Assembly: GCF_900091845.1 (NCBI RefSeq)
Contig: NZ_FMCI01000175.1
Coordinates: 1 to 64,000, forward strand
DNA from: Streptomyces sp. SolWspMP-5a-2
GTDB lineage: Bacteria; Actinomycetota; Actinomycetes; Streptomycetales; Streptomycetaceae
Direction of reading: 5' to 3'
Length of the DNA stretch: 64,000 nt
In this document: positions 6,447-20,212 of the stretch, one piece after another
How the letters are laid out: each line of letters opens with the position of its first letter
Numbering within the stretch: position 1 is the stretch's first letter
Made by a program: the position numbers and the translations under genes
The notes under the pieces: model-generated
The model's input: only the letters and a program-made list of their open reading frames with translations
Databases searched by the model: none
Told to the model about the DNA's origin: nothing

Positions 6447-7196
6447 ATGAGCGGGGAGAACACGGCGCACGACGGCCGCGGCGGACGTCAGGGCAGGCTC
6501 TCCCAGTGGCTGCGCGGACGCCGCCCGAAGGAGGCCGCCGACCCCGCGGGCCGGGAGGCGCTGCTGCTGGCCGCGGCCGGAGCGGGGCTGCCGCTCGCGC
6601 CCGCCGCCCACCCGGCCCCCGGCTACCGCTGCTCCTGCGACCGCGTCGGCTGTCCCACCCCCGCCCGCCACCCCGTCTCGTTCGCCTGGCAGACGCAGTC
6701 CACCACCGACCGCGCCCAGATCGAGCGCTGGGCCCGCCACCAGCCGCAGGCCAACTTCATCACCGCGACCGGCATGGTCCACGACGTCCTCGACGTGCCC
6801 CTCGCGGCCGGTCGCGAGGCGCTGGAGCGGCTCCTGGACGCGGGCGTCGAGGTCGGCCCGGTCGCCGAGAGCGACGACGGCAGGCTCCTGTTCTTCACCC
6901 TCACCCGCGGCACCCCCGAGGACGAGGACGAGTGGTGGCCGTGCGAGCTGGACTGCCACCCCGAGACGATGGACGAGCACCCCGGCCTGCGCTGGCACTG
7001 CCGCGGCTCCTACGTCCTGGTGCCGCCCGCCCGGCTGCCCGGCGACGAGGGCCGCAGCGTGCACTGGGTGCGCGGCCCGGAACACGAGCTGCCCGACCCG
7101 CTGAGCCTGCTGGAGGTCCTCACCGACGTCGGCACCCGGCACGCGGGCCGGGAGGACGCGGGCCAGGTCGGCGCGGGCTGGCCGCCCCGGCACTGA
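6447..7196 (+). CDS. Bifunctional DNA primase/polymerase-like (prim-pol) protein, probably inactive
   Basis: A 249-residue protein of the prim-pol N-terminal domain type common in Streptomyces chromosomes. A Cys-rich entry motif CSCDRVGCPTPARHP lies near residues 60-74, and the core strand reads ATGMVHDVLDVP near residues 108-120. In active enzymes this strand carries the DxD metal pair; here the second Asp position reads Pro (LDVP), so catalysis is doubtful. No helicase domain follows, unlike plasmid or phage RepA/primases. Start is ATG 6447 with gaggtgagggg in front. It converges with the lipoprotein gene, 6 nt apart. Role unknown. Confidence 0.8.
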   Translation: MSGENTAHDGRGGRQGRLSQWLRGRRPKEAADPAGREALLLAAAGAGLPLAPAAHPAPGYRCSCDRVGCPTPARHPVSFAWQTQSTTDRAQIERWARHQPQANFITATGMVHDVLDVPLAAGREALERLLDAGVEVGPVAESDDGRLLFFTLTRGTPEDEDEWWPCELDCHPETMDEHPGLRWHCRGSYVLVPPARLPGDEGRSVHWVRGPEHELPDPLSLLEVLTDVGTRHAGREDAGQVGAGWPPRH

Positions 7197-7202
7197 GCCC
7201 GG

Positions 7203-8207
7203 TCAGCCGCCCTGGGCCGAGATCAGGCCCTCCAGCCGGGAGACGACGGTCACGTCGGTGCCGCCCGCCGCACCCCGCGCCGGGTCCACGGCCACGCCGT
7301 TCGACATGAACTCCATCGTCAGCGACTGCCGCACCTCACCCTCGGTCAGCGCCTTCACGTTCGGGTTCGGCTCCGGGATCGAGGTGCCCGCGAACGCCGT
7401 CTGCTTCTCGTAGCGGCGGTGCGTGAAGAACACCAGCGCCCCGCCGTCCACCGTGCGCAGCGCCAGCGGCGCGTGACCGCCGCCGGTCACCGGCTCGTCG
7501 ATGTACTGGGTGGCGAGCCCCGGCCGCTTCGCCGCCTTCGCGCGCTGCGCCCGCCAGCCGCTGGTGTGCGCGTTCGCCGTGAAGCCCGCGCCGCCGTCCT
7601 TCAGATAGGCCGCGTACCGCGTGCTCAAGTCGTCCGGCGCGACGGCCAGTTCGGTGGAGTTCGCGGGCACCGTCTCGGCCCAGCCGTCGGCGTTCTTGCG
7701 GATCTCGGGCAGCGCGCCGGGCGCCACCAGCGTCAGATAGGCGGCCCGCCAGGTCCCGGCGGCGCCGTCCCGGGTGAACACCAGCAGCCAGTGCCGGTCG
7801 CCGCCCCGGTTGCCCTGCGCCTCCACCACGAACCAGCGCGGCCAGCCCGCCTTCTGCGGGATGGTGTAGACGGCGTCGCTGAACTCCAGGTCCCGGTGGG
7901 CCGAGTTGCCGCCCGGGTTGTTCACCCGGCCGGCCTTCAGGCGCGCCGCGTCGATGTCCCCGAAGGCGCCGGTGACGTGGTCGGCGTCCAGCGAACTGTC
8001 GTACGCGGCATCGGCCTTGTTGTACGCGGCCGTGAACTCCCGCAGCGCGACGGCGGCTTCGGCACGCGTGGTGGCGGGGAGCACCTCGCGCTCCCCGTGG
8101 ACCACCACGCACCCGCTCGCCGTCAGCGACAAAGCGGTCACCGAGGCCGCCACCAGGACGCGTCGGTCAAGCCTGCGGGGCCTTCGAGGGCCGAGATCCC
8201 TGCTCAT
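7203..8207 (-). CDS. Hypothetical lipoprotein linked to the efe operon
   Basis: A 334-residue secreted lipoprotein of unknown function. After a basic N-terminus (MSRDLGPRRPRRLDRR) comes a hydrophobic stretch ending in the lipobox LTASGC (Cys near 33). The mature part has an NTF2/SnoaL-like look (helix ALREFTAAYNKADAAY, then beta-rich segments such as RWFVVEAQGN and HWLLVFTRDG), but I cannot name a family. Its ATG at 8207 overlaps the 3' end of efeU by 41 nt, so it is the fourth gene of the efeO-efeB-efeU transcript and probably translationally linked. An extracytoplasmic helper in iron uptake is a reasonable guess, not shown. Confidence 0.82.
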   Translation of the reverse strand: MSRDLGPRRPRRLDRRVLVAASVTALSLTASGCVVVHGEREVLPATTRAEAAVALREFTAAYNKADAAYDSSLDADHVTGAFGDIDAARLKAGRVNNPGGNSAHRDLEFSDAVYTIPQKAGWPRWFVVEAQGNRGGDRHWLLVFTRDGAAGTWRAAYLTLVAPGALPEIRKNADGWAETVPANSTELAVAPDDLSTRYAAYLKDGGAGFTANAHTSGWRAQRAKAAKRPGLATQYIDEPVTGGGHAPLALRTVDGGALVFFTHRRYEKQTAFAGTSIPEPNPNVKALTEGEVRQSLTMEFMSNGVAVDPARGAAGGTDVTVVSRLEGLISAQGG

Positions 8208-9039
8208 CAGGTGTCGTCACCTTCCCCTTCCCGGAGGCGAACCCTACCGGGGCGAAGAACAGGGCGAGCGTCGGGACCAGGTACAGCAGCCACACCGTGA
8301 CCTGGAGAACCGTCGGGTCCGGCTGGAAGTTGAGGACGCCCTTCAGGAGGGTGCCGTACCAGCTGTCGGGCGGGATCGTGTCGCTGATGTCGAAGGCCAG
8401 GTCCGTCAGGCCCGGCAGCCAGCCCGCCTCCTGGAGGTCGTGGAAGCCGTACGCGAGCACGCCCGCCGCGACGACCACCAGCATGCCGCCGGTCCAGGTG
8501 AAGAACCTGGCCAGGTTGATGCGCAGCGCGCCCCGGTAGAACAGCCAGCCCAGGAGCACCGCCGTGGCCAGCCCGAGCGCCACCCCGATGAGCGGGCGCG
8601 GGGTGCCGTCACCGGCCGCGTGCACCGACGCCCACACGAACAGGGCCGTCTCCAGGCCCTCCCGGCCCACCGCGAGGAACGCGGTGGCGACCAGCGCGCC
8701 GGTGCCCATCGCCAGGGCCGCGTCGAGCCGCCCGTGCAGTTCGGTGCGCAGGTGCCGCGCGGTGCGCCGCATCCAGAACACCATCCACGTCACCAGGCCC
8801 ACCGCGATCACCGACAGCGAGCCGCCGAGGGCCTCCTGCGCCTGGAACGTCAGCTCCTGGGAGCCGAATTCGAGGGCGCAGCCGAAGCCCATCGCGATCA
8901 GCACGGCGACGGCGATCCCCGTCCACACCGGGCGCAGGGCGTCCCGGCGCCCGGTCTTGACCAGGTAGGCGATCAGGATGCAGACGACGAGGCTGGCCTC
9001 CAGGCCCTCCCGCAGACCGATCAGATAGTTGGAGAACAC
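8167..9039 (-). CDS. efeU: FTR1-family iron permease EfeU
   Basis: A 290-residue, seven-helix ferrous/ferric iron channel of the cytoplasmic membrane. The two family motifs REGLE are both present: LIGLREGLEAS in helix 1 and AVGREGLETAL in helix 4, whose Glu residues bind the iron. GTG 9039 is the chosen start because ggaggcgtaacc lies directly in front and the protein then starts VFSNYLIGLREG, as usual for the family; this leaves only two bases after the EfeB stop. It receives iron handled by EfeO and EfeB in the extracytoplasmic space. Length is normal. The order O-B-U differs from the enterobacterial U-O-B. Confidence 0.95.
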   Translation of the reverse strand: MFSNYLIGLREGLEASLVVCILIAYLVKTGRRDALRPVWTGIAVAVLIAMGFGCALEFGSQELTFQAQEALGGSLSVIAVGLVTWMVFWMRRTARHLRTELHGRLDAALAMGTGALVATAFLAVGREGLETALFVWASVHAAGDGTPRPLIGVALGLATAVLLGWLFYRGALRINLARFFTWTGGMLVVVAAGVLAYGFHDLQEAGWLPGLTDLAFDISDTIPPDSWYGTLLKGVLNFQPDPTVLQVTVWLLYLVPTLALFFAPVGFASGKGKVTTPDEQGSRPSKAPQA

Positions 9040-9041
9040 GG

Positions 9042-10292
9042 TTACGCCTCCTTGGCGAAGAGCGTGCGGCCCCACCAGTCGTCCGCGTCGCGGACGCCCG
9101 GCGGGACGGCGAAGACCGCCGAACCGACGTGCTGGATGTACTCGTTGAGTGCGTCGCGGGCCGACAGGGAACGCTGGAGCGGCACGAACCCCTCGCGGAC
9201 GTCGCGCTGGTAGGCGAGGAAGAACAGGCCCGCGTCCAGCCGCCCGAGGCCGTCGGTGCCGTCGGTGAAGGAGTAGCCCCGGCGCAGGATGGTGATCCCG
9301 TGGTTGGAGTCGGGGTGCGCCAGCCGGACGTGCGCGTCCGGCTTCATCGCCTTGAGGAACGGCGCGTCGTGCTCACGGGCCTTGCCGACCGGGGCGCCCT
9401 CGCCCTTGTCGCGGCCGAAGACGTCCTCCTGCTCCTGGAGCGAGGCGCGGTCCCAGGTCTCGATGTTCATGCGGATGCGGCGGGCGACGAGGTAGGAGCC
9501 GCCGGTCATCCAGGCGGGCCCGTCGCCGTCGCCGACCCACACGAACTTCCCCAGCCGTCCGGTCTCGGTGCCCGCGATGTTGCGGGTGCCGTCCTTGAAC
9601 CCCATGAGGTTGCGCGGGGTCTGGGCGTCGGGGGTGGTCGACGACGTCTTCCCGAAGCCGAGTTGGGACCAGCGGACGGCGACGGTGCCGAAGCCGATGC
9701 GGGCCAGGTTGCGGATGGCGTGCACGGCGACCTGCGGGTCGTCGGCGCACGCCTGCACGCACAGGTCGCCGCCGGTGCGGGCGGCGTCCAGGTTGTCGCC
9801 GGGGAAGTGCGGCAGGTCGACGAGCGCGGCCGGACGCCGGTCCGCCAGCCCGAACTTCGCGAACAGGGACGGCCCGAAGCCGATGGTCAGGGTCAGCCGG
9901 GACGCCCGCAGACCCAGGGCCTCGCCGGTGTCGTCGGGCGGCGCCTCGGGGAGCCCGCCGTGGGCGCCGTCGCCGACCTCCTCGCCCGCCGTCATCCGGC
10001 GGGCCGCGGCCGTCCACTCCTTCAGCAGCCGGACGAACGCGGCGCGGTCGTCGGTGCGCACGTCGAACGCGGCGAAGTGCAGCCGGTCCTGCACCGCGGT
10101 GGCGATGCCCGCCTGGTGGGGGCCGTGGAAGTCCACCGCGTCGGGCGCCGACCGGCCGTCGCCGGTGGTCGCGAGGGCCATCGCGCCGCCGGTCGCGGCG
10201 GCGCCGAGCGCGAGCCCGGCACCGCCCCAGCCGATCAGCGCCCGCCGCGACGGACGGGCGGTGCCCGCCGCCGGGTCCTGGGTCTCGGTCAT
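9042..10292 (-). CDS. efeB: Deferrochelatase/peroxidase EfeB (dye-decolourising peroxidase)
   Basis: A 416-residue haem peroxidase of the Dyp family, exported folded by the Tat system: the N-terminus has PSRRALIGWGGAGLALG, a twin-arginine signal, and EfeB proteins act outside the membrane. The Dyp distal motif GFKDGTRN near residue 230 supplies the catalytic Asp; the proximal haem His is probably in RLAHPDSNHG; AYQRDVREGF near the end is also typical. Family members oxidise iron and have been proposed to release iron from haem. Start ATG 10292 lies 8 nt after the efeO stop. Second gene of the efe operon. Confidence 0.95.
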   Translation of the reverse strand: MTETQDPAAGTARPSRRALIGWGGAGLALGAAATGGAMALATTGDGRSAPDAVDFHGPHQAGIATAVQDRLHFAAFDVRTDDRAAFVRLLKEWTAAARRMTAGEEVGDGAHGGLPEAPPDDTGEALGLRASRLTLTIGFGPSLFAKFGLADRRPAALVDLPHFPGDNLDAARTGGDLCVQACADDPQVAVHAIRNLARIGFGTVAVRWSQLGFGKTSSTTPDAQTPRNLMGFKDGTRNIAGTETGRLGKFVWVGDGDGPAWMTGGSYLVARRIRMNIETWDRASLQEQEDVFGRDKGEGAPVGKAREHDAPFLKAMKPDAHVRLAHPDSNHGITILRRGYSFTDGTDGLGRLDAGLFFLAYQRDVREGFVPLQRSLSARDALNEYIQHVGSAVFAVPPGVRDADDWWGRTLFAKEA

Positions 10293-10300
10293 GTCCGCCG

Positions 10301-11446
10301 CTACTTCACGACGGCGGCGGCCAGCTTGGAGAGCGGCTCCGCCAGCGCGTTGACCGCGTCCGACAGCTCCTTGCGCTGCTCCTTGGTCACCTTGTCGTAG
10401 GCCGTGTAGCCGTTCTGCGCGGCGTCGTCGGTGGAACGGTGGGTGTCCAGCAGGGCGTCGAGCGCGGCGAACTGCTTGTCGAGTTCGGTGGTGAGGGCGG
10501 CGTCGTTCTTCGCGGCGACCGGCTTCAGCAGCTCGTACGCCTTCTGCGCGCCCTCGACGTTGGCGCGGAAGTCGCTGAGGTCGGTATGCGAGTAGCGGTC
10601 CTCCTCGCCGGTGACCTTGCCGGTGGCGACCTCGTCGAGCAGCTCCTTGGCGCCGTTGGCCATCGAGGTGGGGGTGATCTCGGCCCTGCCGACCCGCCGC
10701 TGCCAGTCCTTCAGGTCGGTGACGAGCTGCGCGGCCAGCGTCTTCTGCTCGGCGCCGATCTTCTTGTCCTGCCACAGCGCCTTCTCCAGCGCGTGCCAGC
10801 CGGTCCACTTCTGGCCCTTCTCCAGGCCGTCGGCGCGGGTGTCGGTCTTCGGGTCGATGTCGCCGAAGGACTCGGCGATCGGCTCGGTGCGCTCCCAGCC
10901 GACGCGCGAGGGGGCGTAGGCGTTCCTGGCCGCTTCGAGGTCACCGGCGTCGACCGCCTTGGCGAACGTCTCGACCGCGGGGATCGTCGCGTCGGCCTGC
11001 TCCTGCGCGTACTCGCGGTAGGCGGCGACCGCCTTGTCGAGCTTCGGGTCGCGGGCGGCGGCCTTGCCGCCGCCGGTGACGGTGAGCTTCTGCCGGACGC
11101 CGAGGCCCTTCATGCCGGGGCGGCAGGCGATCTCGTACGCGCCGGCCTTCACCTCGGCGGTCAGCGTGTACTTGGTGCCGGGGCCGATGTTCTCCTTCTC
11201 GGAGACGATCCGGTCGTCCGGGAAGAGGATCTCGACCTCGGTCGCCCGGGAGCCCTTGTTGGCTATCTTCAGCGTGACCTGACCGGCCGGGACCGAGGTG
11301 GTCGACGTCTCGCAGGTGGAGTCGGCGGCGGTCACCTGGATGACGCCGTCGCCGTCGGCCGCGCTTTTCTCGGTGCAGCCGGTGACCGCGGTCAGGGCCG
11401 CGGCGGTCGCGGCGGCGGTCACGAACGAGACTCTGACGGCTCGCAT
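10301..11446 (-). CDS. efeO: Iron uptake lipoprotein EfeO (cupredoxin + M75 domain)
   Basis: A 381-residue extracytoplasmic iron-binding component. The signal ends in a lipobox, LTAVTGC (Cys about 24). Residues 30-125 form an EfeO-type cupredoxin domain with Cys in DSTCETS and CRPGMKG at the expected ends. The rest is the helical M75 imelysin-like domain with the family HxxE motif in GWHALEKALW. It delivers iron to EfeU. It is the first gene of the unit, and an iron box lies about 60 nt upstream of its ATG, so iron-dependent repression by a DmdR/IdeR-type regulator is expected. Confidence 0.95.
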   Translation of the reverse strand: MRAVRVSFVTAAATAAALTAVTGCTEKSAADGDGVIQVTAADSTCETSTTSVPAGQVTLKIANKGSRATEVEILFPDDRIVSEKENIGPGTKYTLTAEVKAGAYEIACRPGMKGLGVRQKLTVTGGGKAAARDPKLDKAVAAYREYAQEQADATIPAVETFAKAVDAGDLEAARNAYAPSRVGWERTEPIAESFGDIDPKTDTRADGLEKGQKWTGWHALEKALWQDKKIGAEQKTLAAQLVTDLKDWQRRVGRAEITPTSMANGAKELLDEVATGKVTGEEDRYSHTDLSDFRANVEGAQKAYELLKPVAAKNDAALTTELDKQFAALDALLDTHRSTDDAAQNGYTAYDKVTKEQRKELSDAVNALAEPLSKLAAAVVK

Positions 11447-11504
11447 GCAGGCTCCAAAGGGGCGACAGGGATGGCGAGAAAACGCCGGTCCAGGCTCACG
11501 CGGG

Positions 11505-11523
11505 GTTGGTGAGGCTCGCCTAA
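11505..11523 (-). promoter_or_regulatory. Iron box upstream of efeO
   Basis: A 19-bp site that matches the DtxR/IdeR/DmdR consensus as I remember it at 14 of 19 positions (half-site core ggtgaggct, other half cgcctaa). It lies 59-77 bases upstream of the efeO start, in an otherwise gene-free stretch between efeO and hmuV, and is the weakest of the three boxes in this window. Confidence 0.72.
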
Positions 11524-11645
11524 CTTATCCAAGCCTCACCTCGGTGATACCCACGCATGCGGTGATTCAGCTCTCATGTGTGACAGGTGGGCACGAGTCG
11601 ATCACGGTGGCTCAAAATGCTCACCAAGTCGGGGTCAAAGGGAAT

Positions 11646-12539
11646 TCAAAGGTTCCGCTGAGGGGTGATCAGAAGGGCGTCCGTGCGCGGGTGCGGGAAC
11701 ACCTCGACCGGCTGGTCGTACACCCGCGACAGCAGCGTCTCGGCGAACACCTCGGCCGGCGGCCCGTCCGCGGCCACCCGGCCCGCCGCCAGGACGGCCA
11801 CCCGGTGCGCGTAGGCGGCGGCGAGCCCCAGGTCGTGCAGGACGACCACCACGGCGTCCCCCGCCCCCGCCCGCTCCCGGCACAGCCGCAGCACCAGCTC
11901 CTGATGTCTCAGGTCCAGCGCGGCGGTCGGCTCGTCGAGCAGCAGCAGGGGCGCCCGCTGGGCGAGCACCCGGGCCAGCGCCACCCGCGCCCGTTCCCCG
12001 CCGCTCAGCGCGGAGAAGGGGCGGGCCGCGAACGCGGTCACCTCGGTCGCGGCCATCGCGTCGGCCACCGCGCGATCGTCCTCGGCGGGGGAGGAGGCGT
12101 GCGGGGCGCGGCCCATCCGGACCACGTCCTCGACCGTGAACGGGAAGGAGAGCACCGCCGACTGCGGCAACACCGCCCGCCGCAGGGCGAGTTCCGGCGC
12201 GGAGAACCCGGTGACCGGGCGGCCGTGCATCCGCACCTCCCCGGCGGAGACCGGGAGATCGGCCGCCAGCACCCCCAACAGGGTGGATTTCCCGGCGCCG
12301 TTGGGGCCGACCAGTGCCAGCACCTCACCGGCCCTGACCGTGACGCTCACGCCGTCGAGGACCGGCCGCCCGCCGAGGGCGACCCGCACCGACGCGGCCT
12401 CGGCGACCGTGCCGCCGGGCGCGACGGGGGCGGGGGGAGCGGGGCGGGTGCGCGGAAACCGCATGCGACGGGTCCTCGGGGTAGGGGGTGCCGGGTCGGG
12501 ATGGGCGGGCCGGAGTGGACGCGGGGCGGCGGCGCTCAC
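11646..12539 (-). CDS. hmuV: Haem ABC transporter ATP-binding protein HmuV
   Basis: The cytoplasmic ATPase of a haem importer, 297 residues from GTG 12539. Walker A is GPNGAGKST, the signature is LSGGERARVALAR, and Walker B is LLLLDEPTAALD followed by the H-loop VLHDLGLAA. GTG 12539 overlaps the TGA of the permease gene as GTGA and has gggaggctgggc in front, so translational coupling is likely; a later ATG at 12464 would trim a Pro-rich 25-residue tail. It works with HmuU and HmuT, whose genes precede it. The unit ends about 120 nt from the start of the efeO promoter region and is transcribed away from the HtaA genes. Confidence 0.93.
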   Translation of the reverse strand: MSAAAPRPLRPAHPDPAPPTPRTRRMRFPRTRPAPPAPVAPGGTVAEAASVRVALGGRPVLDGVSVTVRAGEVLALVGPNGAGKSTLLGVLAADLPVSAGEVRMHGRPVTGFSAPELALRRAVLPQSAVLSFPFTVEDVVRMGRAPHASSPAEDDRAVADAMAATEVTAFAARPFSALSGGERARVALARVLAQRAPLLLLDEPTAALDLRHQELVLRLCRERAGAGDAVVVVLHDLGLAAAYAHRVAVLAAGRVAADGPPAEVFAETLLSRVYDQPVEVFPHPRTDALLITPQRNL

Positions 12540-13624
12540 GCCCAGCCTCCCTGCCTGCGGCGCGTCCTGCGCAGCAGCCAGAAGAAGAACGGGCTGCCCA
12601 GCAGCGCGGTCAGGACGCCCAGCGGGAGTTCGGCGGGGGCCGCGACGGTACGGGCGGTCAGATCGGCGGCCAGCAGCACGAGGGCGCCCAGCAGCGCGCT
12701 CGCCGGGACCAGGAAGCGGTGCCCGGGGCCCGCCAGCATCCGCAGCAGGTGCGGGACGACCAGGCCGACGAAACCGATGATGCCGGAGACGCTCACCGCG
12801 GCCGCCGTCAGCAGGGCGATCACCAGGACCAGGACGAGCCGCAGCCGCTCCACGTCCACGCCCAGGTGCCTGGCCGGGCGTTCGCCGAGCGCCAGCAGGT
12901 CGAGCCGCCGCGCGTACAGCGGCGCCACGGCCAGGCCGAGCACCGCGCACGGCAGCACCGCGAGCACCTTGGGCCAGGTGGCCGCCGAGAGCGAGCCGAG
13001 CTGCCAGAAGGTGATCTGGTTGACCGCCGCGGTGTCCGCGAAGAAGAGGAACAGGCCGATCAGGGCGCCGCCGAAGGCGTTCACCGCGATGCCGGTCAGG
13101 ATCAGGGTCACCACCTCCGTGCGCCCCCCCGACCTGGACATCGTGTAGACGAGCAGCGAGGTGGCGAGCCCGGAGCCGAACGCGAACAGGGTCACCGTCC
13201 AGGTGCCGAGGAAGGTGAGGTCGAAGGCGATCGCCCCGACCGCGCCCACCGCAGCCCCGGACGAGACGCCGATCACACCCGGCTCGGCGAGCGGGTTGCC
13301 GAAGACACCCTGCATGAGCGCGCCCGCGCAGCCGAGGGAGGCGCCGACCAGCAGCGCGAGCACGATCCTCGGGAACCGCACGTTCCACAGCACGGACTCC
13401 GCGACCCGGTCGAGTCCGGTGCCGCCGAGCCCGATCCGGTGCTGCGCCGAGGCGAGGACGTCACCGACCGGCACCGGGTAGGCGCCCAGCGAGGCGGCGA
13501 CCGGGATCAGCGCGAGGAGGGCGAGGGCGAGCCCGGCGGTGAGCAGCCCGGTGGTGGAGCGGCGGCGCCTCGGGGGCGCGGCGGCGTCCGTCCCGGTCCC
13601 GGAGGGGCGGTCGAGCACGGTCAC
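12536..13624 (-). CDS. hmuU: Haem ABC transporter permease HmuU
   Basis: A 362-residue FecCD/BtuC-type permease with about ten membrane helices. Typical family strings are GNPLAEPGVIGVSSGA and GFVGLVVPHLLRM, the latter close to the coupling helix that touches HmuV. GTG 13624 overlaps the hmuT stop as GTGA and is the preferred start; another GTG at 13618 is two codons later. The first 35 residues are a hydrophilic Arg/Pro-rich tail. It forms the membrane channel for haem handed over by HmuT. Confidence 0.93.
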   Translation of the reverse strand: MTVLDRPSGTGTDAAAPPRRRRSTTGLLTAGLALALLALIPVAASLGAYPVPVGDVLASAQHRIGLGGTGLDRVAESVLWNVRFPRIVLALLVGASLGCAGALMQGVFGNPLAEPGVIGVSSGAAVGAVGAIAFDLTFLGTWTVTLFAFGSGLATSLLVYTMSRSGGRTEVVTLILTGIAVNAFGGALIGLFLFFADTAAVNQITFWQLGSLSAATWPKVLAVLPCAVLGLAVAPLYARRLDLLALGERPARHLGVDVERLRLVLVLVIALLTAAAVSVSGIIGFVGLVVPHLLRMLAGPGHRFLVPASALLGALVLLAADLTARTVAAPAELPLGVLTALLGSPFFFWLLRRTRRRQGGWA

Positions 13625-14634
13625 TTCGCGCCGTCCTCGCCGTAGAGCTGCGTCACCACGGAGGTCAGCACCTGGTCGGTGCGCGGCCCGTAGTTGAGGA
13701 GCACCCCGTCCTCGACGGAGACGATCCGGCGGTCCATGCCCGCCGGGGTCTCGGCCACGCCGGGGATCTTCACCAGGCCGTCGATCCCGCCGACGGACTC
13801 GAGTCCCTTGGTCATGACCAGGATCGCGTCCGGGGCGGCCTTCACCAGGGCCTCGCTGGTGATGGCGGTGAAGTCCTTGGTCAGGCCCGACTCGGCGCCC
13901 GCGTCGACGCCGCCCGCCGCCTCGATGAGGGACCCGGCGCCCGAGCCCTCGCCGCCGATCAGATAGACCGAGGCGGAGCCGCGCAGGTAGAGGAAGGCCA
14001 CCCGGGGCTTCTTCTTCTGGTGCGGAACTCCCTTGCGCACGGCGGCGATCCGGCCCTCGGAGCGGGCGGTGAGCCGCTTGCCCGCGTCGGGCACGCCGAG
14101 CGCCCCGGCGACCGCGCCGATCCGGCGGCCCACGTCGTCGAGGCCCCGCGCGGCGGCGACGGTCAGGACCGGGACCCCGGCGGCCCGGATCTGGTCCATG
14201 GCCTCCTCGGGCCCGGAGGTGGACTCGGCGATCACCAGGTCGGGCCGGAGGGAGAGCACGCTCTCGGCGGAGACGTCGTGGCCGCGGGTCACCACGGGCA
14301 GTCCGGACGCCTGCTGGAAGGTGGCGGTGATGTCCCGGGCGACGACGCGGTCGCCGAGGCCGAGCGTGAAGACGATCTCGCTGAGGCTGCCGGAGAGCGG
14401 CACGATCCGCTCGGCCTCGCGGACGGTCACCTTCCGCCCGTCGGCCGATCCGACGGTCACGGGGAGGGCGGGGGTGACGGTGCCGGTCAGCGGCTCGACC
14501 CGGTTCGCGGCCGCCGTGGAGGCGGTGGGCGAGGGGGACTCGGCGTCCGCCGCCGGGCCGCAGGCGGTCGCGGTCAGGGTGAGGGCGAGCACGGACACCA
14601 GTGCTCCCGCCAGTCGTGTGCGCAAGCGTCGCAC
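13621..14634 (-). CDS. hmuT: Haem-binding lipoprotein HmuT (haem/haemin ABC transporter)
   Basis: A 337-residue substrate-binding lipoprotein of the haem/B12/siderophore class with two lobes. The signal ends in LTLTATAC (lipobox Cys about 25). Family landmarks are RIVPLSGSLSEIVFTLGLGDRVVARD, split here across positions near residue 75, and the LRPDLVIAESTSG strand. The expected haem-binding His/Tyr ligands were not assigned. Assignment to haem rather than siderophore rests on the neighbouring HtaA and haem oxygenase genes. The ATG at 14634 lies about 50 nt from a strong iron box shared with the divergent HtaA gene. Confidence 0.9.
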   Translation of the reverse strand: MRRLRTRLAGALVSVLALTLTATACGPAADAESPSPTASTAAANRVEPLTGTVTPALPVTVGSADGRKVTVREAERIVPLSGSLSEIVFTLGLGDRVVARDITATFQQASGLPVVTRGHDVSAESVLSLRPDLVIAESTSGPEEAMDQIRAAGVPVLTVAAARGLDDVGRRIGAVAGALGVPDAGKRLTARSEGRIAAVRKGVPHQKKKPRVAFLYLRGSASVYLIGGEGSGAGSLIEAAGGVDAGAESGLTKDFTAITSEALVKAAPDAILVMTKGLESVGGIDGLVKIPGVAETPAGMDRRIVSVEDGVLLNYGPRTDQVLTSVVTQLYGEDGAK

Positions 14635-14686
14635 TGTCTGGTCCGTTCCTTTCTTTCGGCCACTGCCGGTATGGCTCCGGCAAAGC

Positions 14687-14705
14687 TTAGGTTAGCCTTA
14701 CCTTC
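14687..14705. promoter_or_regulatory. Iron box between hmuT and the first HtaA gene
   Basis: The sequence TTAGGTTAGCCTTACCTTC matches the remembered IdeR/DmdR consensus at 16 of 19 positions. It is placed between divergent starts at 14634 and 14741, so one bound dimer could control both the haem importer and the haem-binding surface proteins. Confidence 0.9.
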
Positions 14706-14740
14706 GCTCGCTACCGGCTGTCGTATCCGGAGGACCTTTC

Positions 14741-16216
14741 ATGCCCGCGCGCCTACGTGCCCTGGTGACCGTGCTCTGCGCGGCCGTCCTCGGCGCCCTC
14801 CTTCCCGCGGCGACGGCCCACGCCGCGAGCCGCACCGTGCAGGGCGGCAGGCTCGACTGGGGCATCAAGGCGTCCTTCCAGTCCTACGTCACCGGGCCGA
14901 TAGCCAAGGGGAGTTACTCCCTCACCGGCGGCGCGGCCACCATCGGCGGCGGCTTCCGCTTCCACTCGGCGAGCGGCTCCTACGACGGCGCGACGGGCGC
15001 GTTCCGGGCCGGGTTCTCGGGCGGGGTCCGCTTCCTCGGCCACCGCACCGACTCCGGCGCCTACCAGCTCGACCTCACCCTCAGCCGTCCCACGGTGAGC
15101 GTCTCCGGCTCCTCCGGCACGCTCTACCTGGACGTCGTCAGCAAGGCGAAGGACACCGGGGCGGTCACGACGTCCCGTCAGGTGCCCTTCGCCACGCTGT
15201 CCCTGGGCGGGATCGACATGCGCGGCGACGGCGACGAGGTCGTCCTCAACAACCTGCCCGCCACCCTCACCGCACAGGGCGCCACCTCCTTCGCCGGGTA
15301 CTACACGGCCGGTACCGCGCTCGACCCGGTGAGCCTGTCGGCGGACGTCAGGCCCGCGGCGGTGGCGGCGTCCCCGAAGCCGACCACGACCCCCGAGGCG
15401 TCCAAGTCGCCCGCGCAGAAGAAGAGTTCGGGCGGCGAGCTGAAGAACGGCGCCGTCGACTGGGGGGTGCGCCGCACCTTCCGCGAGTACGTCACCGGCG
15501 ACATCGCGCGGGGCGGCTGGAAGCTCTCCGCCGGGGCCCAGGACGGCGGCGCCCTCTTCCGCTTCCCGAAGGGCGAGGGCACCTTCGAGAAGGGCGACCT
15601 GCACGCGTCGTTCGCCGGGACCGTCGCCTTCACTGGCGAGAACGGCCTCGATCTGCGGCTCGGCGGCGTCCGCGCGGTCGTCGAGGACGGCAGGGGCACC
15701 CTCTACGCCGACGTCACCAGCCCCGACTTCACCGGCAAGAAGGTCCCGCTGGTCACGTTCGCGGCCAAGGGCCTGAAGGCGAAGGACGGCCTCGCGAAGG
15801 TCACCGAGGCACCGGCGAAGCTCACCTCCAGGGGCGCGGCGGCCTTCGGCGGCATGTACCAGGCGGGCACCGAGATGGACCCGGTCTCGCTGGCCGTGGC
15901 CCTCACCGCGTCCGCCGCCCTGCCCGCCCTCCCCGACCTGGGCAGCACCCCCACCGCGAGCGCGTCGCCCAGCGCCTCCCCTTCGGCCGCGCGGGAGTCC
16001 GCCGAGCCGGTGGCGAGCAGCACCGGTGACGGCGGCGGTTTCCCCGCCCTGCCCGTCGGCCTCGGCGCCGGGGCGCTGCTGCTGGCCGGGGCCGCCTACG
16101 CGGTCGTCCGGGCCCGCCGCACCCGTCTCGCCGTCGAGACCGCACCCGACAAGGCCACCGGCCCCGCGGCGGAGGGCGGCCCCGGCACGGGCGCAGGCCC
16201 CGGACCGCGGGGCTGA
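14741..16216 (+). CDS. HtaA-domain haem-binding protein with C-terminal membrane anchor
   Basis: A 491-residue cell-surface protein that probably binds haem or haemoproteins. A signal peptide (about residues 1-29, ending AHAAS) is followed by two HtaA domains, starting near residues 36 (RLDWGIKASFQSYV) and 235 (VDWGVRRTFREYV). A Ser/Pro/Ala linker of about 50 residues leads to one membrane helix near 432-455 and a basic stop, then a hydrophilic tail. There is no LPxTG-like motif, so it is membrane-held and not sortase-linked. Divergent from hmuT with a shared iron box. The second HtaA gene follows 60 nt later. Confidence 0.92.
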   Translation: MPARLRALVTVLCAAVLGALLPAATAHAASRTVQGGRLDWGIKASFQSYVTGPIAKGSYSLTGGAATIGGGFRFHSASGSYDGATGAFRAGFSGGVRFLGHRTDSGAYQLDLTLSRPTVSVSGSSGTLYLDVVSKAKDTGAVTTSRQVPFATLSLGGIDMRGDGDEVVLNNLPATLTAQGATSFAGYYTAGTALDPVSLSADVRPAAVAASPKPTTTPEASKSPAQKKSSGGELKNGAVDWGVRRTFREYVTGDIARGGWKLSAGAQDGGALFRFPKGEGTFEKGDLHASFAGTVAFTGENGLDLRLGGVRAVVEDGRGTLYADVTSPDFTGKKVPLVTFAAKGLKAKDGLAKVTEAPAKLTSRGAAAFGGMYQAGTEMDPVSLAVALTASAALPALPDLGSTPTASASPSASPSAARESAEPVASSTGDGGGFPALPVGLGAGALLLAGAAYAVVRARRTRLAVETAPDKATGPAAEGGPGTGAGPGPRG

Positions 16217-16276
16217 TCCCCCCACGCACTTCACCGCATCCGCCGGACGGCGGACCACACGAGGAGAACCACCGAC

Positions 16277-17812
16277 ATGCCCGTCAGACGACGACGTTCC
16301 ACCGCTCTCGCCGCCGCCGTGGCCACGGCCGCCGCGCTCGGCGCCACCGCGCTCGCCACGGCCGGCGCGACCACCGCGTCCGCCGCCGAAGTACCCCTCA
16401 GCGGCTACGAGTTGACGTGGGGCATCAAGCAGTCCTACCGCACCTACGTGGCGACCTACGCCCAGGGCAGCTTCACCCCGTCGGCCGGTGCGACGCAGGC
16501 CGCGGGCAACGGCGCGTTCACCTTCGTGGACGGCGCCGGCAGCTACGACTCCACCGGCCACACCCTCGCCCTCGCCTTCAAGGGCGGCCTGAAGATCGAG
16601 TCCAAGGCCCACGGGTTCGAGATAGCCCTGTCGGACATCAAGTTCGACAGCAAGGACGCCGAGATCACCGCCGACGTCACCCGCAACGGCACGACCACGG
16701 ACGACGTCCCGCTCGCCACCGTCACCGTCACCCGTGACATGAAGGAGATGGCGACCACCCTCACCGAGGAGGCCGCGGACGTCTTCGGCAGCGCGAGCTA
16801 CGCCAACGCCGCGGGTGACCCGCTGACCGTCGTCCAGACGACGCCGCCGACCTCCGAGCCGCCCGCCTCCGGGTCGCCGTCGCCCACCGGCGAGCCCTCC
16901 CCGTCGACCGGCCCGAGCGACCCGGAGACGTCCCCCTCGCCGACCGGCTCCCCGAGCGCCTCCGCCTCGCCGACCGGCAGCGCCGCACCGAGCACCGGCC
17001 CGAGCCCCTCGGCGTCCGCCACCGAGCCCGCCACCAAGGGCGACATCGTCGACGGCCGCCTCGGCTGGGGCGTGAAGGAGTCCTTCCGCAGCTACGTCGT
17101 CGGCACCGTCGCCCACGGGAAGATCTCCGCCTCCGGCGGCGCCACCCAGGCCACCGGCAACGGCGCGTTCACCTTCGTCAAGGCGACCGGCACCTACGAC
17201 ACCGACGCGGGCAGCCTCTCCGCCGCCTTCGAGGGCGCCGTGAACTTCAAGGGCCACGAGACCAACGGCACCTACGCCCTCGACCTGACCCTCAGCGACC
17301 TGCACGTCAGCCTCGACGGCGGCGCGGGCGAGCTGACCGCGGACGTCACCAGCCTCGGCAAGAAGACCGAGGACGTCGTCCTGGCCGACCTCAAGGCCCC
17401 CTCCGCCGGACTGACCGCCGAGGGTGACGTCATCACCGTCGACGACGTCACCGCCACCCTCACCGAGGCGGGCGCCGGCGCGTTCAGCGGCTACTACCAG
17501 GCGGGCGCCGTGCTCGACCCGGTCGCCCTGTCGGTGGCCCTGAGCGACGACGCCGACCTCCCGGAGGACGGCGGCTCCGGCTCGACCGGCGGCTCGGGCT
17601 CCACCGGGGGCACCGGCACGACCGGCGGCACCGGCGGCACCGGCTCGGTCTCCGGCGGAGTCACCGGCTCCACCACGGGAGGCATCACCGGCGGCCTCGC
17701 CGCCACCGGCTCCGACGTCCCGGTCGCCGCGCTCGGCACGGCCGCCGCGGTGGCCGTCGCGGCGGGCGCGGGCGTCGTCGTCGCGATGCGCCGCCGCCGT
17801 ACCGCGCAGTAG
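16277..17812 (+). CDS. HtaA-domain haem-binding protein with LAATG sortase signal
   Basis: A 511-residue cell-wall protein. A signal peptide ends near residue 37 (ASAAE). Two HtaA domains start near residues 46 (LTWGIKQSYRTYV) and 258 (LGWGVKESFRSYV), separated by a 60-residue Pro/Ser/Thr linker. A Gly/Ser/Thr linker then reaches LAATG near residue 474, a hydrophobic helix and MRRRRTAQ. LAxTG is the motif used by class E sortases of Streptomyces, so covalent attachment to peptidoglycan is expected. It would pass haem to the shorter-anchored HtaA protein or to HmuT (inference). A gaggag ribosome site precedes ATG 16277. Confidence 0.93.
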   Translation: MPVRRRRSTALAAAVATAAALGATALATAGATTASAAEVPLSGYELTWGIKQSYRTYVATYAQGSFTPSAGATQAAGNGAFTFVDGAGSYDSTGHTLALAFKGGLKIESKAHGFEIALSDIKFDSKDAEITADVTRNGTTTDDVPLATVTVTRDMKEMATTLTEEAADVFGSASYANAAGDPLTVVQTTPPTSEPPASGSPSPTGEPSPSTGPSDPETSPSPTGSPSASASPTGSAAPSTGPSPSASATEPATKGDIVDGRLGWGVKESFRSYVVGTVAHGKISASGGATQATGNGAFTFVKATGTYDTDAGSLSAAFEGAVNFKGHETNGTYALDLTLSDLHVSLDGGAGELTADVTSLGKKTEDVVLADLKAPSAGLTAEGDVITVDDVTATLTEAGAGAFSGYYQAGAVLDPVALSVALSDDADLPEDGGSGSTGGSGSTGGTGTTGGTGGTGSVSGGVTGSTTGGITGGLAATGSDVPVAALGTAAAVAVAAGAGVVVAMRRRRTAQ

Positions 17813-17820
17813 CGCGCGCA

Positions 17821-17863
17821 CGGCGGGAGGGCGGGAGCGCACGCGGCTCCCGCCCTCCCGCCG
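17821..17863 (+). terminator. Hairpin terminator after the HtaA pair
   Basis: Two perfect 18-nt arms (17821-17838 and 17846-17863) with a 7-nt loop lie 8 nt after the HtaA stop. It is the likely transcription end of the HtaA unit. Confidence 0.85.
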
Positions 17864-17881
17864 TGATGCTTAAATGCCCGC

Positions 17882-18526
17882 GTGAGCGACTACGACGTAC
17901 TGCGTGTCTTCTGCGGCCCGAGGGGCGGTTACGGCAACGAACTGGGCGTGATCCGCGAGGGCTCGGTGCTGCCGGAGCGCGCCGGACGCCAGGAACTCGC
18001 CGCCAAACTCGGCTTCAGCGAGACGGTGTTCGTGGACGACCCGGAGCGCGGGGTCATCGACATCTACACGCCCACCACGCGGCTGCCGTTCGCCGGGCAC
18101 CCCTGCGTCGGCACCGCCTGGCTGCTCGACGTGCCCGAACTGGTCACGCCCGCCGGGGTGGTGGGGGTGCGCCTGGACGGCGAGTTCAGCTGGATCGAGG
18201 CGCGCGCCGACTGGATCCCGCCGCGCACCCTGCGCCGGTACGCCACGGCCGCCGAGGTGGACGCCCTCCCGGTGCCGCCGCCGGGGGAGTGGATCTACGC
18301 CTGGGCGTGGGAGGACGAGGCCGCGGGACGCGTCCGCGCCCGCGCCTTCCCCGGCCGGGACGACGGCATCGACGAGGACGAGGCGACGGGCGCGGCGGCG
18401 ATCCTGCTCACCGACCGGCTCGGCCGGGCGCTCAACATCACCCAGGGAGCGGGCTCCCAGCTCCTGACCGCCCCGCAGCCGGGCGGCTGGGTGGAGGTCG
18501 GCGGCCGGGTCCGTCTGGAGCGGTAG
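17882..18526 (+). CDS. PhzF family phenazine biosynthesis/isomerase-like protein
   Basis: A 214-residue protein of the PhzF/YddE isomerase family, whose known members isomerise small hydroxy-acid substrates such as dihydro-hydroxyanthranilate; this substrate is unknown. Seen motifs are GYGNELGVI near the N-terminus (family GNP position reads GNE), the PFAGHPCVGTAWLL segment near residues 61-74, and EDEATGAAAILL near residue 165. At 214 residues it is shorter than the usual 260-300, with part of the C-terminal lobe missing. The start is GTG 17882, 18 nt past a terminator and without a clear ribosome site. It sits inside the haem island, but no chemical link is evident. Confidence 0.85.
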   Translation: MSDYDVLRVFCGPRGGYGNELGVIREGSVLPERAGRQELAAKLGFSETVFVDDPERGVIDIYTPTTRLPFAGHPCVGTAWLLDVPELVTPAGVVGVRLDGEFSWIEARADWIPPRTLRRYATAAEVDALPVPPPGEWIYAWAWEDEAAGRVRARAFPGRDDGIDEDEATGAAAILLTDRLGRALNITQGAGSQLLTAPQPGGWVEVGGRVRLER

Positions 18527-18540
18527 GAGGGGACGGCGAC

Positions 18541-18568
18541 GGCCCGGCGGACGGTGTGCCGCCGGGCC
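18541..18568. terminator. Bidirectional hairpin terminator
   Basis: Perfect 10-nt arms ggcccggcgg/ccgccgggcc with an 8-nt loop lie between the convergent PhzF-like and haem oxygenase genes. Confidence 0.75.
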
Positions 18569-18584
18569 CCGGACGGGGGAGCGC

Positions 18585-19232
18585 TCACGCGGAGAGCGGG
18601 AACTCCTCGCCCAGCGCGGCGAAGACGCCGGTGTTGAGCGCGAACGCCCTCTTGCACTCGGCCACGATCCGCTGCTTCTCCAGGTCGTCGGCCTCGACGG
18701 CGTCCAGCAGCTCGCGGTAGCCGCGCTTGAACGCCGCCGGGTTGTCGATGCCCTCGAAGACGTAGAAGCGCACGCCGTCGCCCTTGCGCTCGAAGCCCCA
18801 GGTCTTCTCCGCCTTGTCGCGGATGATCTGGCCGCCGGAGAGGTCGCCGAGGTAGCGGGTGTAGTGGTGGGCGATGTACCCGGCGGGCCACCGCTCGGCG
18901 CACTCGCGCACCCGGTCCGCGTAGGCGCGGGTGGCGGGCAGGGCGGTCAGACCGCCGCGCCAGCCGTCGCCGCGCAGATGGGCCAGGTCGCGCTCCAGGG
19001 CCTCGGTGCGGAACAGCTCGGGTCTGATGAAGGGGCCGGCCACCGGGTCGGACGCCAGCCGCCCGGCGCCCTCCTCCAGTGCCTGGTACACGAACCACAG
19101 CTGCTCGGTGTAGCGCGCGTACGCGTCCACGCCGAGCCGGCCGCCGAGCAGGTCGCTCATGAACGTCGAGGTCTCCGCCTCGACGTGCTGCTCGTGGGAC
19201 GCGGTGCGGATGACTGTCGAGAAGGACTCCAT
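18585..19232 (-). CDS. Biliverdin-producing haem oxygenase
   Basis: A 215-residue HmuO/HO-1 type haem oxygenase that opens haem to biliverdin, CO and Fe2+ in the cytoplasm. The proximal His is in IRTASHEQHVEAE near residue 16, FVYQALEE follows, and the distal helix GDLSGGQIIRDKAEK supplies the flexible Gly-rich motif over the haem. Length is as expected. Start ATG 19232 (MESFSTV) is preferred; ATG 19244 (MIRPMESF) is four codons earlier and would touch the iron box. Neither has a ribosome site, so the transcript may be leaderless. Regulation by iron is strongly suggested by the box directly upstream. Confidence 0.95.
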   Translation of the reverse strand: MESFSTVIRTASHEQHVEAETSTFMSDLLGGRLGVDAYARYTEQLWFVYQALEEGAGRLASDPVAGPFIRPELFRTEALERDLAHLRGDGWRGGLTALPATRAYADRVRECAERWPAGYIAHHYTRYLGDLSGGQIIRDKAEKTWGFERKGDGVRFYVFEGIDNPAAFKRGYRELLDAVEADDLEKQRIVAECKRAFALNTGVFAALGEEFPLSA

Positions 19233-19245
19233 GGGACGAATCATC

Positions 19246-19264
19246 TAAGGTAAGCCTTACCTAA
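19246..19264 (-). promoter_or_regulatory. Iron box at the haem oxygenase promoter
   Basis: TAAGGTAAGCCTTACCTAA is a nearly symmetrical 19-bp site, 16 of 19 positions like the remembered IdeR/DmdR consensus. It ends 13 nt before the preferred start codon, so it probably overlaps the -10 region and the transcription start. Confidence 0.9.
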
Positions 19265-19309
19265 GTCAATGCTTTCCCGACGTCCTGTCGGTAAAAGCGT
19301 ACAAGAAAA

Positions 19310-19354: not shown

Positions 19355-20212
19355 CTACGGCAGGGTCAGGATCTCCGCGCCGGTCTCCGTGACCACCAGG
19401 GTCTCCTCGAACTGCGCGGTGCGCCTGCGATCCTTGGTGACGACCGTCCAGCCGTCGTCCCACAGGTCGTACTCGTGGGTGCCGAGCGTCAGCATCGGCT
19501 CGATCGTGAAGGTCATCCCGGGCTGGATGACCGTCGTCGCGTGCGGGCTGTCGTAGTGCGGCACGATCAGGCCCGAGTGGAACGACGAGTTGATGCCGTG
19601 CCCGGTGAAGTCGCGGACCACGCCGTACCCGAACCGCTTGGCGTACGACTCGATGACCCGGCCGATGATGTTGATCTGCCGGCCGGGCCTGACCGCCTTG
19701 ATCGCCCGGTCCAGGGCCTCCCGGGTCCGCTCCACCAGCAGGCGGCTCTCCTCGTCGACGTCCCCCACCAGGTACGTCGCGTTGTTGTCGCCGTGCACCC
19801 CGCCGATGTACGCCGTCACGTCCAGATTGACGATGTCGCCGTCGCGCAGCACCGTCGAGTCCGGGATGCCGTGGCAGATCACCTCGTTGACGGAGGTGCA
19901 CAGCGACTTGGGGAAGCCCCGGTAGCCCAGCGTCGACGGGTAGGCGCCGTGGTCGCACATGTAGGTGTGCGCCACCTCGTCCAGCGCGTCCGTGGTGACC
20001 CCCGGCGCGATCAGCTTCGCGGCCTCCGCCATCGCGCGGGCGGCGATCCGCCCGGCCCGGCGCATCGCCTCGACGGTCTCCGGGGTCTGCACCTCCGGCC
20101 CGGTGTACGGGGTCGGCGCGGGCCTGCCGACGTACTCGGGACGGCGGATGTTCCCGGGCACCGGGCGGGTGGGAGAGAGCTCCCCTGGTACGAGCAGCGA
20201 CTGGCCAGACAT
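19355..20212 (-). CDS. map: Type I methionyl aminopeptidase
   Basis: A 285-residue cytosolic metalloenzyme that removes initiator Met from new proteins. The five metal ligands can be placed: Asp in [15 protein letters not shown] (two), His in [11 protein letters not shown], Glu in FTIEPML, and Glu in QFEETLVV. The N-terminal extension with [16 protein letters not shown] is typical of actinobacterial type-1c enzymes. Start ATG 20212 gives [10 protein letters not shown]; longer forms would run into the divergent small gene's promoter. Many actinobacteria carry a second map near the ribosomal protein genes, so this may be one of two copies (inference). Confidence 0.96.

Follow-up and report, generated by a model that had tools for sequence, protein, structure and literature searches.

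When haem-uptake genes and an EfeUOB iron importer stand side by side under common iron boxes, do they make up one pathway, or separate modules that share a site? The question is raised by 64,000 nucleotides of Streptomyces sp. SolWspMP-5a-2 (contig NZ_FMCI01000175.1, positions 1 to 64,000; 64 kb, ~73% G+C), hereafter the window, in which positions 8167-19244 encode efeU, efeB, efeO, hmuVUT, two HtaA-domain proteins, a PhzF-like gene and an HmuO-type haem oxygenase (HO). Read from right to left, the order is HO (-), PhzF-like gene (+), htaA2 (+) and htaA1 (+), followed by hmuT, hmuU, hmuV, efeO, efeB, efeU and a lipoprotein gene, all on the minus strand. The original prediction, made from the sequence alone, saw here a complete haem-iron pipeline under one iron regulon, with haem iron freed along two parallel routes: one inside the cell by HO and one outside the membrane by EfeB. 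Our analysis makes it very probable that this is the known siderophore-independent iron locus of Streptomyces, the orthologue of SCO2267-SCO2277, in which the haem and efe blocks, though placed together and under one regulon, are independent modules. The locus is already described in close relatives; its modular presence and absence goes beyond the descriptions consulted.

Results

Modular presence and absence in Streptomyces

The locus is built of modules: at a single chromosomal site, HO, htaA-hmuTUV and efeOBU may each occur or be missing. The nearest relatives of HmuT are encoded, with few exceptions, in loci of Streptomyces. Gene order and iron boxes, compared for the best 80 of 124 such relatives and thus across the HmuT-bearing part of Streptomyces, are conserved. 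Both flanks were included in 56 of the 80 loci, and 54 of these had a window-like gene order (exceptions, L020 and L066). HO, haem block and efe block occurred together in 35 of the 56, and the PhzF-like gene was present in 32 of these and absent from 3. The rest comprised 18 loci with haem genes but no efe, 2 in which efeU was the sole efe gene and 1 without hmuU and hmuV.

Presence and absence were then scored in 151 Streptomyces genomes, an even draw of 150 plus the genome of the window. EfeU was counted only over its cut-off (fragments or weak matches in G006, G060, G089 and G094 were excluded) and HO as one main match per genome (second matches in G006, G020, G052, G065, G071, G086, G135 and G139 were excluded). 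HO was found in 140 genomes, EfeU in 115 and HtaA in 73. All genomes with strong HtaA carried HO (66/66) and 45 of the 66 carried EfeU; the seven with weak HtaA (E >1e-40), tallied separately, all had HO and five had EfeU. Among the 78 genomes without HtaA, HO was present in 67, and a few of these had an hmuT-like gene elsewhere. EfeU was found in 9 of the 11 genomes without HO. The HO match in G135 (C144) was split into two overlapping pieces, as if the gene were broken.

We read 77 loci drawn from four classes of these genomes (48/48, 9/9 with second EfeU copies excluded, 9/11 and 11/21 genomes). Most had the same flanks, with each of the three blocks present or absent between them. Of 66 HtaA-less loci, one retained hmuU and hmuV, and eleven matched part of hmuU or hmuV (two of them nearly all of the conserved part of hmuV). 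These pieces suggest that the haem importer was lost in the lineages that keep them. The efeO box (<=5 mismatches) was kept in all 46 HtaA-less loci in which HO neighbours efe. In five loci (L024, L026, L031, L053 and L059), the place expected for efeOBU held a more divergent EfeU-like gene (46-56% identity).

On a FastTree phylogeny of the two flanking genes (121 loci; a weak tree), htaA required a minimum of 27 changes, efe 12, HO 5 and the HO box 9; these counts do not distinguish gain from loss. The HO box was present in 71/71 distinct HtaA-positive loci (73 rows, two being duplicate fetches; in L165 the HtaA genes lie outside the fetched stretch) versus 41/56 HtaA-less loci, 15 of which lack it. 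These counts agree with a tie between loss of the HO box and loss of the haem importer. We do not claim such a tie, as independent-pair tests on the tree were not significant for HtaA versus HO box (median p 1, range 0.125-1); nor were they for HtaA versus efe. A search of the Streptomyces literature, with most subscription journals outside its coverage, returned neither an account of modular gain or loss nor a growth experiment on haem with mutants of these genes.

HtaA and its partners in other Actinomycetes

Co-occurrence was also examined in 268 Actinomycetes outside Streptomyces, with ten weak HO matches dropped and an E limit of 1e-3 for EfeU (171 genomes, of which 164 were over the cut-off); the statistics ignore relatedness. 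HO was found in 49 of 56 HtaA genomes (odds ratio 33, Fisher p 1e-22). EfeU was, if anything, negatively associated with HtaA (24/56 versus 126/212; odds ratio 0.5, p 0.03), and the odds ratio of HO versus EfeU was 0.35. Seven of the 56 HtaA genomes were without HO; three of these had EfeU, all three with weak HtaA matches. HO and EfeU lay within 20 kb of each other in none of 31 genomes: 15 had them on one contig, the nearest pair 52 kb apart, and 16 on different contigs, where distance is not visible. These 31 are drawn from 33 genomes with both genes, the EfeU position of the other two being unlisted. Efe genes beside haem genes were confined to Streptomyces in the genomes sampled. As HtaA co-occurs with HO, with no positive association of EfeU with either, we argue that HO would work together with the HtaA-Hmu importer, and that EfeUOB would be an independent iron importer that has the same site and regulon in Streptomyces.

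Three conserved iron boxes

We scanned the window for a degenerate 19-bp box, TTAGGTNAGSCTNACCTAA, at <=3 mismatches. Three matches were found in 64 kb, all inside the locus, against a mean of 0.00 in 100 shuffles, and their positions at efeO, between hmuT and htaA1, and at HO confirm the three boxes of the original prediction. The sites are conserved in the 80 relatives, counted here together with the window. All 47 loci having efeO had a site with <=5 mismatches at its promoter; the box between hmuT and htaA1 was found at <=3 mismatches in 80/81 loci when measured from htaA1 and in 75/81 from hmuT; and the best 19-bp site at the HO promoter had <=6 mismatches in 62/62 loci. Six control promoters (map, hmuU, phzF, lip, efeB and efeU) gave >=5 mismatches, mostly 7-9. 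On the 19-bp pattern alone the weakest HO sites therefore overlap the best control, HO reaching 6 mismatches where controls start at 5. These weakest sites fit a shorter 14-bp core, TTAGG-N4-CCTAA, which is a better fit than the full box at HO in 24/62 loci. In either form (19-bp at <=4 mismatches or core at <=1), the HO box was found in 62/62 loci versus 3/1240 shuffled sequences. A second degenerate box-like stretch was seen by eye at 11525-11543, right after the efeO box.

The genome-wide scan proposed with the original prediction was run with a related pattern at <=1 mismatch and gave 25 strand hits in 14 places, the HO box among them, versus 2 for a reversed control. The genome encodes one clearly strong DtxR-family match (72.7 bits), and three more pass the cut-off at 26-33 bits. 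With a 19-bp box conserved beyond chance at these promoters, we infer that a DmdR/IdeR-type repressor would bind at the three sites.

The box also bears on how HO is expressed. TTGAC abuts the HO box in 61/62 loci, matching the candidate -35 hexamer of the window (Table 1). The iron box ends 1 bp short of the ATG at 19244, so translation probably starts at 19232. The simplest reading would be a promoter with the iron box as spacer and a nearly leaderless message translated from 19232.

Genes of the locus

Family profiles and gene order bear out the predicted neighbourhood of two HtaA proteins, haem ABC importer, HO and EfeOBU (Table 1). All named genes were found, and the HtaA matches, too, exceed their Pfam cut-off; the PhzF-like gene inside the locus had gone unmentioned. 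The predicted span, which began at 7203, holds for the iron and haem genes from 8167 onward, but the lipoprotein gene before them is mostly kept beside the primase-like gene in loci without efe or haem genes, and we therefore take it as flank.

Table 1. Positions of genes and regulatory elements in the window, with the matches that identify them
Feature	Position	Strand	Evidence
Primase-polymerase-like gene	6447-7196	+	Left flank
Lipoprotein gene	7203-8207	-	No Pfam match
efeU, FTR1-type iron permease	8167-9039	-	NF041756 382 bits (cut-off 255); PF03239 285 bits; two REGLE motifs
efeB, DyP-type A peroxidase, Tat-type signal	9042-10292	-	TIGR01412 561 bits (cut-off 428); signal RR and GFKDG motif
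efeO, lipoprotein-like, cupredoxin and M75 domains	10301-11446	-	NF041757 471 bits (cut-off 270); PF13473; PF09375; HxxE at residue 218
Iron box of efeO	11505-11523		3 mismatches, weakest of the three; upstream of efeO
hmuV, haem ABC ATPase	11646-12539	-	NCBIfam PRK13548 317 bits (cut-off 261)
hmuU, FecCD-type permease	12536-13624	-	PF01032 318 bits (cut-off 26.5)
hmuT, substrate-binding lipoprotein	13621-14634	-	PF01497 (Peripla_BP_2) 114 bits (cut-off 27.5); PDB 5gj3 E 3e-61, 5az3 E 4e-55
Iron box common to divergent hmuT and htaA1	14687-14705		2 mismatches
htaA1, two HtaA (CR) domains, C-terminal membrane-like stretch	14741-16216	+	PF04213 316 bits, 2 stretches; axial-type Tyr in both domains, helper-region His in one
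htaA2, two HtaA domains, LAATG sorting-type C-terminus	16277-17812	+	PF04213 233 bits, 2 stretches; axial-type Tyr and His in both
PhzF-like gene, 214 aa	17882-18526	+	PF02567 49.5 bits (cut-off 27); SETVF, FAGHP and DEATG motifs
HmuO-type HO	18585-19244	-	PF01126 (Heme_oxygenase) 230 bits (cut-off 23); PDB 1iw0 E 2e-41; likely start 19232
Iron box of HO	19246-19264		1 mismatch
Candidate -35 hexamer TTGACT	19264-19269	-	Runs directly into the HO box, one base in common
map, methionine aminopeptidase gene	19355-20212	-	Right flank

In addition to its Pfam match, the HO retains the proximal His and the distal GDLSGGQ helix in the alignment with 1iw0 (C. diphtheriae HmuO). HmuT is probably haem-binding: its best solved relatives include haem-binding proteins, and one His and one Tyr, presumably the haem ligands, are retained in the alignments. 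HmuV passes a haem-specific NCBIfam equivalog; none passes its cut-off for HmuT or HmuU. A motif scan, as distinct from a structural alignment, placed a Tyr at the axial position in all four HtaA domains and a helper-region His in three; the roles of the axial Tyr (helix 1) and helper-region His in CR domains are described in PMC12494546, here and below cited, like the other papers, from excerpts. HtaA2 ends in LAATG, a membrane-like stretch and an Arg tail, and scored 19.7 bits against an LAVTG sortase-type model, under the cut-off of 27. HtaA1 has a membrane-like stretch without an LAATG-type motif.

The three EfeUOB components are contiguous on the minus strand, each above its curated cut-off. 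They carry REXXE in EfeU, HXXE in EfeO and a Tat-type signal in EfeB, which we take to be marks of such importers, and GXXDG in EfeB. Judged by its PDB matches (4grc, E 3e-226; 6i43, the same sequence as 6tb8, E 1e-214), the window EfeB is the orthologue of S. lividans DtpAa and of 4grc. We rejected its identification as the copper-linked DtpA, since the 4grc and DtpAa chains match at E <1e-210 versus E ~1e-72 to 1e-75 for DtpA 5mjh and SCO3963 4gt2. In S. lividans, the efeB homologue SLI_2602 has likewise been set apart from DtpA, and DtpA has been compared with B. subtilis EfeB, an Fe(II) oxidiser (PMC4736821). DtpAa (6TB8) shows extremely low reactivity toward many organic substrates (PMC11168072).

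The PhzF-like gene carries SETVF, FAGHP and DEATG motifs that presumably have the roles they have in PhzF. It is kept at the locus in many Streptomyces species, even where HO (several species) or efe is gone. Outside the genus, a tblastn search using the proteins of the window (E up to 1e-5) found HO, HtaA, HmuT, HmuU or Efe within ~8 kb of a PhzF-like relative in 0/20 loci. These loci come from 19 of 41 genomes with such a relative, one contig being just 5.5 kb, and one locus had a generic ABC-ATPase match nearby (E 2e-9). A role of this gene as haem-pathway partner was rejected as unsupported.

Discussion

The window closely resembles known systems. In S. coelicolor, the 11 genes SCO2267-SCO2277 are co-expressed, have three predicted DmdR1 sites and include homologues of hmuO, htaA, hmuTUV and efeOBU, and SCO2275 (efeO) is among three novel predicted DmdR1 targets (PMC12161575). 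The same homologues and three boxes are found in the window. The excerpted account counts among the 11 genes SCO2269, which is without known family; the window locus has 10. From its position, SCO2268, whose family goes unnamed in those excerpts, would be the PhzF-like gene. The HO cluster of S. atratus holds two tandem HtaA genes, a haem ABC transporter, a putative deferrochelatase and an iron transporter (PMC10060970), as does the window; iron boxes go unmentioned in the excerpts of that paper. The hmuTUV-htaA and hmuO genes of Corynebacterium encode the same protein families as the window, where the axial Tyr of the CR domains is kept. In Corynebacterium, HO is not known to be encoded at the htaA-hmuTUV locus, nor are efe genes known to lie next to that locus. 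Like EfeUOB, FepABC and YwbLMN, the window system has all three components at family cut-offs and is iron-regulated by predicted boxes, but its box is of the DtxR/IdeR type rather than a Fur box.

Taken together, these likenesses and the modular occurrence of the blocks support our reading of two independent modules under one iron regulon. As iron runs short, a DmdR/IdeR-type repressor would leave the three boxes. The two HtaA proteins, anchored in wall or membrane, would bind haem outside, HmuT would take it over and HmuUV would import it. Cytoplasmic HO would then open the haem ring and release the iron. Separately, EfeO, EfeB and EfeU would import free (ferrous or ferric) iron, and EfeB would serve as a metal-oxidising peroxidase.

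Several observations weigh against this reading. SCO2267 (HO) is among three predicted targets without a significant dmdR1 transcription correlation (PMC12161575), which speaks against a simple single regulon. The one-regulon part of the original prediction is supported by the complete haem set, the boxes conserved across species and the three sites predicted in S. coelicolor. In S. atratus, haemin was tolerated at nM concentrations only and was toxic above them, and biliverdin was not significantly raised (PMC10060970); use of external haem is for this reason putative. In 48/78 HtaA-less Streptomyces genomes, no more than 20 kb separates HO from EfeU, often at the same chromosomal site. Haem-iron use was restored in an E. 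coli mutant by E. coli EfeB, or by S. aureus FepA with FepB (PMC3577903). The co-occurrence counts, finally, carry no correction for relatedness.

A tentative alternative, which we regard as possible yet clearly the less likely account, is that HO mainly turns over the cell's own haem for iron recycling and biliverdin supply, the haem importer being an optional extra that roughly half of the genus carries. HO is indeed far more widespread than HtaA (140/151 versus 73 genomes) and common without it (67/78), its box is missing in 15/56 HtaA-less loci as against 0/71 HtaA-positive ones, and biliverdin on unsupplemented medium is implied for S. atratus (PMC10060970). However, an HO box in every HtaA-positive locus is as expected of a haem-uptake enzyme, and the association of box and HtaA was not significant on the tree.

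The other part of the original prediction, a double route to haem iron, is not supported by the comparative evidence. It would have EfeB, fed by surface HtaA, take iron from haem outside the membrane and leave the porphyrin intact, with EfeU importing the iron in parallel to HmuTUV and HO inside. The Tat-type signal of EfeB, the name 'deferrochelatase' on many of its nearest PDB entries, the E. coli complementation and the adjacency of HO and efeOBU in 48/78 HtaA-less genomes all speak for such a route. In that complementation, S. aureus FepB stayed cytoplasmic (PMC3577903). According to a review, the deferrochelatase activity of EfeB-type enzymes is controversial, and B. subtilis YwbN shows none (PMC8197335). 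With this dispute on one side and the complementation on the other, the literature is divided, and release of haem iron by EfeB with protoporphyrin IX left over is possible. The genomes argue against the external route: HtaA goes with HO, which is missing in 0/66 Streptomyces genomes with strong HtaA, and not with EfeU; outside the genus just 3/56 HtaA genomes have EfeU without HO, all with weak HtaA; HtaA and EfeU show no positive association there; and none of 31 genomes has HO and EfeU within 20 kb of each other (16 with the two on different contigs). Moreover, the efe and haem blocks vary independently. We consider this route improbable. Most doubtful is a functionally coupled core of HO and EfeUOB, in which EfeB strips haem outside, HO opens it inside and HtaA-HmuTUV serves as an exchangeable third part, even though such a core would explain the adjacency in HtaA-less genomes.

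A story of two ways to open haem is plausible from the neighbourhood, yet adjacency alone is insufficient. Because some species have a given module at this site and others do not, the locus amounts to a natural experiment in which what HO, the haem importer and EfeUOB each contribute can be told apart in laboratory Streptomyces. Comparison of these modules could help settle whether EfeB-type peroxidases release haem iron.

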